Part shown: positions 32,765 to 36,055 of the stretch, in pieces | Layout: every line of letters begins with the position of its first letter | Numbering within the stretch: the stretch's first letter is position 1 | Assembly: GCA_015493615.1 (NCBI GenBank) | Contig: WGCV01000009.1 | Coordinates: forward strand, 1-58,578 | Origin: Melioribacteraceae bacterium | Lineage (GTDB): Bacteria > Bacteroidota > Ignavibacteria > Ignavibacteriales > Melioribacteraceae | Length of the DNA stretch: 58,578 bases | Reading direction: 5' to 3' | Notes under the pieces: model-generated | What the model was told of the DNA's origin: nothing | The model's database searches: none | Seen by the model: the letters and a program-made list of their open reading frames with translations, nothing else | Made by a program: the position numbers and the translations under genes

Positions 32765-34207
32765 TTATCCAACGCTTCCTTCCAAACTGATTTCCAGCAG
32801 CTTTTGAGCTTCAACGGCAAACTCCATCGGAAGCACGCGGAATACTTCTTTACAGAATCCGTTCACTATCATATTTACGGCGTCTTCGGTCGGGATTCCG
32901 CGCTGGTTAAGATAAAAAATTTGATCTTCGCTAACCTTGGAAGTTGTCGCTTCATGTTCAACCGTCGAAGAATTGTTATCAACCTCTATATATGGAAAAG
33001 TGTGCGCTCCGCATTTATCGCTCATCAGCATTGAATCGCACTGGGAAAAATTCCGCGCGCCTTCGGCGCTTTTGTGAACTTTAACCAATCCGCGGTAGCT
33101 GTTATCGCTGAATCCCGCCGAAATACCTTTTGAAACAATTGTGCTTCTCGTATTTTTTCCGATATGAATCATCTTGGTTCCGGTGTCAGCCTGCTGATAA
33201 TTATTTGTTACTGCAATAGAATAAAATTCGCCGATTGAATTATCCCCTTTCAGAACACAGCTTGGGTATTTCCATGTTACCGCAGAGCCTGTTTCTACCT
33301 GCGTCCATGAAATTTTTGCATTGGTTTCGCAAAGTCCGCGCTTGGTTACAAAATTGTAAATCCCGCCTTTACCATCCTTATCTCCCGGATACCAGTTTTG
33401 GACGGTGGAATATTTAATTTCGGCGTTATCCATTGCGATTAACTCTACAACGGCGGCATGCAGCTGATTTTCATCCCGCTGCGGCGCGGTGCAGCCTTCG
33501 AGGTAACTTACATAACCGCCTTCGTCGGCAACAATCAAAGTTCTCTCGAACTGTCCGGTTTCCGCCGCGTTAATTCTGAAGTAAGTCGATAATTCCATCG
33601 GGCAGCGCACGCCTTTCGGAATGTAAACAAACGAGCCGTCGCTGAAAACAGCAGCGTTCAAAGCCGCATAAAAATTATCCGTATATGGAACGACCGAGCC
33701 GAGATATTTTTTCACCAAGTCGGGATGTTCTCTGACGGCTTCGGAAATCGAGCTGAAAATAACTCCTTTTTCCTTTAATGTTTCCTTAAACGTGGTGGCA
33801 ACGGAAACGGAATCGAAAACCGCGTCAACGGCTACGTTGGCAAGGAGTTTCTGTTCTTCAAGGGGAATCCCGAGTTTCTCAAATGTTGCGAGGAGTTCCG
33901 GGTCAACTTCGTCAAGACTGTTAAGTTTCGGTTTCTGTTTTGGCGCTGAAAAATAGCGGATATCCTGAAAATCAGGGCTTTCGTATTTTACTTTTGCCCA
34001 CGTCGGTTCCTTAAGCGTAAGCCAATGTTTATACGCTTTTAAACGCCATTCCAAAAGCCATTCCGGTTCTTGCTTAATTTCCGAGATTTTTCTTATGATA
34101 TCTTCATTCAATCCTTTCGGAAAAGCGTCTTCTTCTATTTCGGTAACAAAACCCCATTTATATTCGGAGTTGGTAACATTTTCAATTGTTTTATTTTCTT
34201 CGCTCAT
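32765..34207 (-). CDS. sufB: Fe-S scaffold protein SufB
   Basis: 480 residues. Characteristic blocks are [89 protein letters not shown] (scaffold Cys) and [21 protein letters not shown]. It is the first gene of sufB-C-D-S-T-rrf2. A 65-bp gap before sufC holds an A/T-rich stretch with no clear terminator. Confidence 0.97.
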
Positions 34208-34422: not shown

Positions 34423-34451
34423 AAAAAAAGCCCCGGCAATTCACCGGGGCT
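34423..34451 (-). terminator. trpB2 terminator
   Basis: Minus strand: AGCCCCGG, loop TGAATTG, CCGGGGCT, then a T-run (TTTTTTT). Ends the trpB2 transcript about 40 bp past its stop. Confidence 0.85.
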
Positions 34452-34490: not shown

Positions 34491-35852
34491 CTATTTTTTA
34501 ATTTGAGGCAAATCGGCAAAGTATCTTAAAATTGTCTCTTCGGGAAGCTGATAATCTTCAAGATTTCCCGCGATATACTGCTCGTAAGCGCCAAGGTCCA
34601 AAAATCCGTGACCGGAAAGATTAAAGATAATCGTCTTTGCTTCGCCGGTTTCTTTACACTTAAGCGCTTCGTCCATTGCGGCTTTTACCGCGTGGGCGCT
34701 TTCAGGCGCGGGTAGAATTCCTTCGGCATTGATAAAATCACGCGCGGCATCAAAAACCTCAAGTTGATGATAGCTTCTCGCTTCAATCATTCCTTCCTCG
34801 TGCAGCTTTGAAACCGTTGGCGCCATACCGTGATAGCGAAGTCCGCCGGCGTGAATTTTAGGTGGAATAAAATTATGCCCGAGCGTAAACATTTTCAGCA
34901 GCGGAGTAAAACCTGCGGTATCGCCGAAATCGTAAGTGAATTTTCCTTTGGTAAGCGTAGGACATGAAGCCGGCTCAACGGCGATAACCTGCAAATCTTT
35001 TTTGGCGCCGCTCAACTTATCCCGCAAAAACGGGAAAGACAAACCGGCAAAGTTACTCCCGCCTCCCGCGCTTGCTATTACTATGTCGGGATATTCTCCC
35101 ACCTTTTCTAACTGCAGCCGCGCTTCCTCGCCTATTACCGATTGGTGAGTCATCACATGATTAAGAACGCTTCCGAGCGAATAGTTCGTTTTATCGTCCT
35201 GCACTGCAAGTTCGATTGCTTCGCTGATTGCGATTCCCAAAGAGCCGGGAGAATCGGGATCTTGTTCCAGTATTTGTCTTCCCGAATTTGTCAGCGGCGA
35301 GGGACTCGGATCAACTTTCGCTCCGTGGAGCATCATCATGGTTTTACGATACGGCTTCTGGTAATAGCTTACCTTTACCATAAAAATCTGCAGCTCCAAT
35401 CCGAAATGTTGCGCGGCAATCGAAAGCGCGCTTCCCCACTGTCCGGCGCCGGTTTCGGTTACAAGCCGTTTAATTCCAGCCCTTTTGTTATAGTAAGCTT
35501 GAGCAATTGCCGTGTTGGTTTTATGACTTCCGGCAGGATTTACCCCTTCGTATTTGTAGTATATTTTTGCTGGAGTATCCAAAAACTTTTCGAGATTAAA
35601 CGCGCGAAAAACAGGCGTCGGGCGGCTGATTGAGTAAATTTCCCGCACTTCTTCAGGGATATCAATAAACCTTTCCTGACTCATTTCCTGTTCTATTAAT
35701 TCCATCGGGAAAATAGCGGATAAATCATCTGGCGAAATCGGCTCCTGCGTTGCGGGATTTAACGGCATCGCCAGCGGCGAAGGGAGATCAGGCAAAATGT
35801 TGTAGTATTGCTTCGGCATTTCTTTTGCGGATAAATAAATTTTGTTGTCCAT
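34491..35852 (-). CDS. trpB: tryptophan synthase beta subunit, TrpB2 type
   Basis: About 453 residues. Joins indole and serine to make tryptophan with PLP. Visible blocks are [51 protein letters not shown] (PLP Lys), [33 protein letters not shown] and [13 protein letters not shown]. The long insert form without a trpA partner is TrpB2, thought to salvage indole. The start is ATG 35852 with AAGGAG just upstream; the open frame to 35906 runs through the attenuator hairpin. Controlled by the leader at 35884-36055. No other trp gene is nearby. Confidence 0.93.
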
Positions 35853-35883
35853 TTGTAACTCCTTTTTGATTTTAGTAAAAATA

Positions 35884-35960
35884 AAAAAGCCGTGTTCTTC
35901 TGACACGGCTTTAAAATGAAAAAGCCGTGAATCGTCTTCCGACTATCCACGGCTCTGTTA
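35884..35960 (-). promoter_or_regulatory. trp attenuator hairpins
   Basis: Minus strand, 5' to 3'. Segment 1 is AGCCGTG (35954-35948), segment 2 CACGGCT (35929-35923), segment 3 AGCCGTG (35910-35904) and segment 4 CACGGCTTTTTT (from 35894). Pairings 1:2, 2:3 and 3:4 are all possible, and 3:4 followed by T-rich sequence is a terminator. GGATAGTCGGAAG (35948-35936), inside the 1:2 hairpin, can instead pair with CTTCCGCTATCC at the end of the leader ORF (35992-35981). A ribosome stalled at the Trp codons would leave that sequence free, break 1:2, allow the 2:3 antiterminator and let trpB2 be transcribed. Confidence 0.85.
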
Positions 35961-35977
35961 AAAATTATTTATTAACT

Positions 35978-36055
35978 TTAGGATAGCGGAAGCATACTGT
36001 TCCACCACCACCAAGTAGTAATATTGTTTGCGTTATTTTTTCTTTCAAAATTCAT
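35978..36055 (-). CDS. trpL: trp leader peptide with four consecutive Trp codons
   Basis: A 25-residue ORF too short for standard gene calling: ATG at 36055, codons 15-18 are all TGG (36013-36002; peptide context TTWWWWNSM), TAA at 35980-35978. It precedes the attenuator hairpins and trpB2, as expected of a charged-tRNA-Trp sensor. The codons after the Trp run (CTT CCG CTA TCC) double as the RNA segment that pairs with the protector hairpin. No strong ribosome site is seen, which is common in Bacteroidota. Confidence 0.85.
   Translation of the reverse strand: MNFERKNNANNITTWWWWNSMLPLS

Follow-up and report, generated by a model that had tools for sequence, protein, structure and literature searches.

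The window, a stretch of 58,578 nucleotides, comprises positions 1 to 58,578 of contig WGCV01000009.1 from a Melioribacteraceae bacterium (assembly GCA_015493615.1) and carries on its minus strand a gene for a TrpB-like PLP enzyme of 453 amino acids (34491..35852; NCBIfam profiles). The protein is a TrpB2, with 730 bits against NF009057 (cut-off 366) and 674 bits against TIGR01415 (cut-off 519), and the ordinary trpB profile TIGR00263 stays below its cut-off. The gene is preceded by the ribosome-binding sequence GGAG (35859..35862) and starts at 35852, 32 nt past the lower limit (35884) of the region described in an earlier note on this DNA. It appears to be monocistronic, because a terminator-like hairpin (34429..34451; pattern scan, 10 pairs, 7 GC) follows it and the next open reading frame (ORF), starting at 34207, is sufB-like by eye.

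Upstream of trpB2, on the same strand, lies a leader ORF of 25 codons, MNFERKNNANNITTWWWWNSMLPLS, which runs from its ATG at 36055 to 35978 and has its TAA stop at 35980-35978. The run of four consecutive Trp codons (TGG) that the earlier note had reported is present at 36013-36002; this run, TGGTGGTGGTGG, constitutes region I, the 5' arm of a protector hairpin I:II (35978..36014; -15.2 kcal/mol) formed between the Trp codons and the last part of the leader ORF, a pairing also contained in the minimum free energy (MFE) fold of the window. Region II, CTTCCGCTATCC, occupies the end of the leader ORF (35981..35992), and its partner, GGATAGTCGGAAG, lies in the 5' arm of the next hairpin (35936..35948). 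The resulting antiterminator II:III has 12 bp, one bulged U and an energy of -19.3 kcal/mol, as anticipated from the letters in the earlier note. The alternating segments AGCCGTG and CACGGCT were likewise each found twice between 35955 and 35886. They make up a first hairpin A:B (III:IV; 35922..35955; -21.0 kcal/mol), most likely the main terminator and followed by the U-run CUUUUUCAUUUU (35913..35924), and a second tandem terminator C:D (35886..35912; 10 pairs, 5 GC; -14.0 kcal/mol), followed by TTTATTTTTA. The 5' arm of this second terminator, segment C, can also pair with the first, and the B:C pairing CACGGCUUU/AAAGCCGUG (35904..35929; -10.4 kcal/mol) is a predicted second antiterminator once region II occupies A. 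The U-run of the first hairpin and the pairing of the Trp codons with the leader end had not been mentioned in the earlier note. The 185-nt leader as a whole folds at -55 kcal/mol (z = -5.6), and none of 200 shuffles was as stable.

Relatives were examined in 164 genomes of the order, 84 of which have a TrpB2-like match at E <= 1e-60. DNA upstream of trpB2 was inspected for 82 of these and was cut off in two (L002, L028), leaving 80 readable regions. The same leader, protector, antiterminator and first terminator occur in 36 of the 80, including L004, which was added by hand after its split Trp codons had been missed by the automated Trp pattern; the Trp codons are split in L012 as well. By our own count, Trp-rich leaders of other kinds, for which no U-run hairpin was seen, stand in 15 regions, and 28 lack a short ORF matching the Trp patterns used; one (L118) is a remnant without leader. 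A covariance model of the 36 leaders (R1) returned 38 elements at E < 1e-8 in the 164 genomes, 36 of them its own training set; the two held-out matches lie before a TrpB2 match in G115 and on a contig that ends before the gene in G123. A class-wide search of 294 genomes with R1 newly recognised only G435 (6e-11) and G401 (1e-4), both elements preceding ORFs with a TrpB2 look, and in the genome of the window R1 has one match and none further at E <= 0.05. A second model (R2) was trained on 8 leaders, all from families f2 and f3, with the family of the window excluded; among its 45 hits in 30 selected sources (180 kb) the window ranks first, at E 2.3e-13. The attenuator element is therefore real and conserved, and the complete Trp-codon attenuator directly before a stand-alone trpB2 that the earlier note had described is upheld by its presence in 36 of the 80 readable regions and by the R2 match. 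Ten of the weak R1 hits, located outside trpB2 (L215, L217-L225; E 3e-5 to 0.0022), were inspected and treated as chance terminators; eight lack a short ORF with at least 2 Trp, and L219 and L222 have ORFs with scattered Trp. Two other weak hits fall on the trpE leader L226 (G026, E 0.0017) and on the L118 remnant (G152, E 0.029). A possible promoter consensus TAnnTTTG sought upstream of the leader was seen in 16 of the 36 and is absent in the window.

When the 36 leaders were folded with RNAalifold and no structure was given, two hairpins emerged: that of the Trp codons with the leader end, and the first of the AGCCGTG/CACGGCT hairpins. Of their 20 pairs, 6 have both-side changes. The protector has at least 6 bp in all 36 leaders (mean 12), and two of its pairs changed on both sides in 14 and 13 sequences. 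Own partners in the protector average -16.9 kcal/mol against -14.4 when permuted (0 of 20000 permutations as good), and shuffling the downstream part 200 times gave an equally stable fold at most 10 times in 24 leaders and more than 10 times in the other 12. In the II:III alignment, where a group with a bulged U falls out of register and scores as partly unpaired, 86.5% of cells are paired against 28.9-51.5% when the strands are slid. Both-side-changed cells number 31 against 10.8 in shuffles (0 of 500 as high) and pairs with both-side changes 6 against 3.7 (12 of 500), with no excess of further pair types (15 against 15.0; 366 of 500 shuffles as high). Own II:III partners reach -18.1 kcal/mol against -14.1 for permuted ones (0 of 20000 as low); these permutation and shuffle controls ignore relatedness, and the compensatory changes in II:III recur in separate lineages. 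The letters read GTTTCGCTATC/GATAGTGAAAC in L010, CTTCGCTGTC/GATAGTGAAG in L130, CATCC/GGATG in L004 and GTTTCACCATC/GATGGTGAGAC in the held-out L234. The pairing also persists in three held-out elements, G115 (with new letters), G401 and G123, for which 1, 1 and 10 of 500 shuffles, respectively, scored as low. The covariation supports a conserved protector and antiterminator, as judged from these alignments. For B:C, partner swaps detected no covariation, with 3776 of 20000 permutations as good in leaders with a second terminator (type I) and an uninformative outcome in those whose C complements the ribosome-binding region (type II), so part of its retention may follow from A and C being copies. 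The pairing is kept at z below -3 in 31 of the 32 leaders of the two types, and conservation and complementarity make a B:C antiterminator plausible.

The module behind the classical attenuator is the unusual part of the element and takes three forms. Type I, a second terminator, was assigned to 16 of the 36 leaders, the window included; type II, in which C complements the trpB2 ribosome-binding region GGAGGUUCAC-AUG, to another 16, L122 being degenerate; and type III, without added module, to 4. Pairing of C with the ribosome-binding region gives -10 to -17 kcal/mol in 15 of the 16 type II leaders and -1 to -7.5 kcal/mol in all 20 of types I and III, and against shuffled C it falls below z = -3 in 8 of the 16 and in none of the 20. 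Unlike in the type II relatives, C in the window has no complementarity to the trpB2 GGAG. In a tree of 45 TrpB2 rows, 29 rows of the attenuator family, one of which has lost its leader, stand on one side of a branch (100/99), with type III inside the type II group and the lost-leader case, L118, inside type III. In L118 (G152) the leader and region II are, by eye, gone and a GCCGTG/CACGGCT hairpin with U-run stays. The tree was rooted at its midpoint and the types were assigned by us, so the order of module events is inferred.

The position of region II relative to a translating ribosome was evaluated with a ribosome assumed to reach 16 nt beyond the P-site codon and with region II sought only between the last Trp codon and 16 nt past the stop. 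A ribosome at the first Trp codon leaves at least 75% of region II free in 36/36 leaders, and one at the last Trp codon does so in 31/36; a ribosome at the stop codon leaves at most 25% of it free in 36/36. When the whole leader was searched, the best partner had its 3' end at a distance of -5 to +13 nt from the stop end in 36/36, and in 20 leaders the best pairing included some Trp-codon bases; in five leaders (L007, L112, L113, L114, L122) the stop lies upstream of region II, still within reach of the ribosome. In the window with a ribosome on the Trp codons, the OFF fold has -40.2 kcal/mol and the ON fold, with II:III forced, -34.6 kcal/mol, 5.6 apart. As long as B has not been made, a stalled ribosome lets II:III form 57 to 100% of its pairs; once B is made, A:B beats II:III at equilibrium in all but 6 of the 36 leaders; the exceptions, with II:III at least 30% formed when the ribosome sits on either the first or the last Trp codon, are L004, L006, L114, L115, L116 and L123. 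Because the OFF fold with A:B is the equilibrium winner even when the ribosome is stalled, the switch has to be kinetic. At the point just before B is made, and with no ribosome present, the protector is favoured at equilibrium in 19 leaders, the window not among them, and II:III in 17, the window included, so that termination without translation is uncertain and the behaviour of the untranslated leader is the least certain step of the mechanism.

Taken with these calculations, the comparison indicates that trpB2 transcription is very probably set by the charging of tRNA-Trp, through a ribosome-mediated transcription attenuator of classical design to which a second control hairpin has been added. 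When Trp is short, the ribosome would stall on the TGG run and the protector would melt; the leader ORF end, set free, would capture the 5' arm of the first terminator while its 3' arm is still unmade, and the 3' arm (B) would then pair with the next segment (C), preventing the second terminator and allowing trpB2 to be transcribed. A ribosome on the stop codon would mask region II, so that both terminators could form, and in the absence of translation the protector would be expected to form and transcription to end too. The leader, protector, antiterminator, first terminator and geometry find support in the sequence comparison; the kinetics, the untranslated state and the action of B:C we infer. 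As a Trp-codon attenuator adjoins the gene and relatives carry compensatory changes, the enzyme most likely responds, as the earlier note had proposed, to tryptophan, by way of Trp-tRNA charging.

The roles given to the hairpins in the earlier note differ from these. There A:B was a mere protector and C:D, its 3:4 hairpin ending in a T-run, the sole terminator; stalling would free an upstream segment that breaks the protector and would not mask segment 1, a design said to be slightly different from that of E. coli. On such a scheme the gene would be ON without a ribosome. All the pairings that this scheme uses exist in the window, region II prefers A over the Trp codons at equilibrium before B is made in the 17 leaders given above, and the pattern scan lists C:D (35912-35886) as terminator-like (6 found in 2.4 kb, 2.8 expected) and omits A:B, its rules wanting a simple stem. 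The scheme is nevertheless improbable, because the Trp-codon protector is present in 36/36 leaders, with both-side changes, and because A:B is followed in 36/36 by a U-run (5-7 T within 8 nt behind CACGG) and is the only terminator-like hairpin seen in four relatives that keep the leader (L012, L014, L116, L119). For the last two reasons A:B is most likely the terminator of the family. With the Trp codons as a protector arm and A:B as terminator, the numbering of regions coincides with the E. coli scheme, and the window fits the classical I:II / II:III / III:IV order, which leaves the proposed departure from the E. coli design unsupported; C:D, terminator-like in the scan, is then an extra module. 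An early view that the untranslated state is ON was set aside, since the Trp-codon protector spoke against it, although the equilibrium values of 17 of the 36 leaders leave room for it. A milder departure keeps the classical attenuator and regards C:D as an ordinary duplicated back-up terminator, with the B:C complementarity an idle by-product. The partner swaps without covariation and the AGCCGTG common to A and C agree with this possibility, which we consider real and yet the less probable one, since in type II leaders such as L115, L120, L121 and L123 C stands without D by eye and about 9 nt complementary to B are kept, since A, B and C have changed together in L003 and L234, and since B:C replaces C:D unasked in the MFE fold of the window when II:III is forced. 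The 2:3 pairing of the earlier note corresponds to B:C, a plausible antiterminator for which the swaps showed no covariation.

Two further explanations concern the leader peptide itself. TnaC is of the nascent-peptide arrest type, and a sensor of that kind would read free tryptophan and not depend on stalling at codons; a short W-rich peptide near a Trp-related gene would suit it, as would the similar peptide ends of other trpB2 leaders in the order, e.g. TWPWRR. The peptides of the family vary in sequence, length, number of Trp (2-4) and stop position while the RNA pairing is conserved, and such a sensor is very unlikely here. Least credible, to a degree that leaves it hardly any weight, is the coincidence of two ordinary tandem terminators behind an unrelated gene with a chance ORF of TGG repeats. 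Tandem terminators and TGG repeats can each arise by chance and the region is AT-rich, but the parts are conserved jointly before trpB2 in 36 of the 80 readable regions, and R1 recognises 38 elements at E < 1e-8 in the 164 genomes (36 in the training set), with compensatory changes; short of a systematic artefact, the comparison excludes chance.

The attenuator with a Trp-codon leader preferred here resembles the E. coli trp attenuator, as laid out in the available part of PMC1183508 (regions I:II / II:III / III:IV), in having consecutive Trp codons in region I of a leader peptide, a protector I:II, an antiterminator II:III and a terminator III:IV with U-run, and a stop codon placed so that the ribosome can cover region II. 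Trp-codon leader, protector, competing antiterminator, U-run terminator and ribosome geometry, five features of the E. coli type, are present as modelled. The window differs in sequence and organism group, in its added module (a second terminator, or a complement of the ribosome-binding site in relatives) and in the control of a stand-alone trpB2 and not of a trp operon. No Rfam family matched over the element in the window at gathering score, nor did a search of 301 bases at E up to 10 give one, and among 14 loci searched at E up to 1 no match over the element reached its gathering score, the best sub-threshold match being Leu_leader in L004 (34.9 bits against 50, E 0.0016). The trpB ncRNA motif RF04312 (gathering 59) gave 19.3 bits in the window and 37 bits (E 0.14) in L014. 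The Bacteroid-trp family RF01692, listed as cis-regulatory and not as a switch in the available part of PMC2864571, gave 20.6 bits in the window against a gathering score of 49, and a search of 198 genomes with it found no match in G000. Seventeen RF01692 hits, 13 of them printed, come from a phylum-level sampling by the search tool and so from the same phylum; the 13 have a WWW leader whose end with the stop codon complements the terminator by our own reading of these 13/17 hits (in the three tested, 8, 9 and 11 of 500 shuffles reached as low an energy), and a long downstream ORF, trpE-like by eye, follows in 9 of the 13, none being found in 4. They have one terminator seen, unlike the two of the window.

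Closer at hand are eight trpE operons of the order (L226-L233, from G026, G010, G012, G034, G040, G039, G022 and G018; gene names by eye). Each of the eight fetched shows a W-rich leader together with a U-run hairpin, which suggests that Trp attenuation is the habit of this group. Their leaders have other sequences, mostly CCCTTCT-like, and a single terminator; R2 recognises three at E 9e-6 to 2e-4, four at 0.017-0.036 and one at 0.22, and pairing of leader end and terminator beats shuffles in three (0, 0 and 1 of 500; the others 29-67 of 500). Among the candidate attenuators described for trp operons of actinobacteria is one for a C. diphtheriae gene labelled trpB2; this candidate attenuator of trpB2A with Trp leader peptide, antiterminator and terminator resembles that of the window, and the gene lies, unlike here, with trpA in one of two biosynthetic operons, according to the part of PMC1262725 available. 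In the open-licence literature searched, a coverage outside which most subscription papers lie, no description of this attenuator was found. The element is a classical attenuator of a family not recognised by Rfam, with an unusual added module.

Other Trp leaders were seen before trpB2 genes within and beyond the order. Those of 15 loci (L019, L134, L136; L020, L149, L156, L158, L161; L022, L144, L146, L153, L155; L137, L159) end in WWLSC, WWP...GL or WWPR, WPWRR and similar, and their Trp codons adjoin small inverted repeats with no U-run by eye; these short leaders may work by another route. Among more distant named TrpB2 loci, 75 had sufficient DNA in front of the gene. A short WW/WxW ORF is present in 18 of the 75, in many cases evidently by chance, and in four a U-run hairpin follows the Trp ORF by eye (L049, an unnamed bacterium; L065, Neomarinimicrobiota; L105, Bacteroidota; L077, Caldithrix). 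The Trp leaders and terminators of these four are unrelated in sequence, and 0, 0, 16 and 15 of 500 shuffles pair leader end and terminator as well in L049, L065, L105 and L077, respectively. L049 apparently has two tandem terminators, and masking is less clear in L049 and L065, because their pairing segments end 15 and 19 nt before the stop end. In L128 and L132 (G126, G128) the leader ORF begins a few bases past a tRNA-Lys gene on the same strand, with which it may therefore share a transcript. In L214 (G435) the element (E 6e-11) stands before a TrpB2-like ORF, no ATG, GTG or TTG start was read between the last in-frame stop and the Trp codons, and the pairing, held out, is no better than shuffles (135 of 500 as low); the locus may be degenerate, use an unusual start or contain a sequence error.

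The genome of the window is 96.8% complete and has a single TrpB-like match; profile searches, which covered TrpB, trpA, IGPS, PF04715 and trpD, returned no second TrpB, no trpA (E <= 0.001), no IGPS and no PF04715 (trpE), and for trpD a sub-cut-off match only (34.5 bits against 199). A lone TrpB2, defined as one without trpA or IGPS over cut-off, occurs in 11 of a 58-genome set; of the 10 with readable upstream DNA, 5 have this attenuator, 3 another Trp-rich leader and 2 none. Conversely, 15 genomes of the set have the attenuator, with trpA and IGPS over cut-off in 9, neither in 5 (G000, G001, G002, which is 77% complete, G016 and G031) and IGPS only in G030, so TrpB2 is under this switch in genomes with a full pathway as well as in genomes that lack it. 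The function of stand-alone TrpB2 is debated: according to the available part of PMC1854888, a serine deaminase hypothesis has been reported, deaminase activity was poor in tests of TrpB2, and for P. horikoshii, where no other trp gene is present, TrpB2 was suggested to have a selective function that was still to be identified. A lone TrpB2 under Trp control, in a genome where the other searched trp genes were not found, favours indole salvage and suggests that the window TrpB2 makes tryptophan from salvaged indole, as it would do when Trp is scarce.

An attenuated lone TrpB2 is genomic evidence for a role of this enzyme in Trp supply. A broader proposal, for and against which we see even chances, is that one Trp leader switch was rewired within a single TrpB2 clade, from tandem terminators to a hybrid that hides the ribosome-binding site, with loss of the module and then of the leader, and that the role of TrpB2 in pathway-poor genomes is to make Trp from indole and not to deaminate serine. 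If this is true, the released segment in the derived form pairs with a terminator arm or hides the ribosome-binding site of trpB2, and one leader peptide would govern transcription and translation together. The three output forms constitute a natural series on how an attenuator changes.
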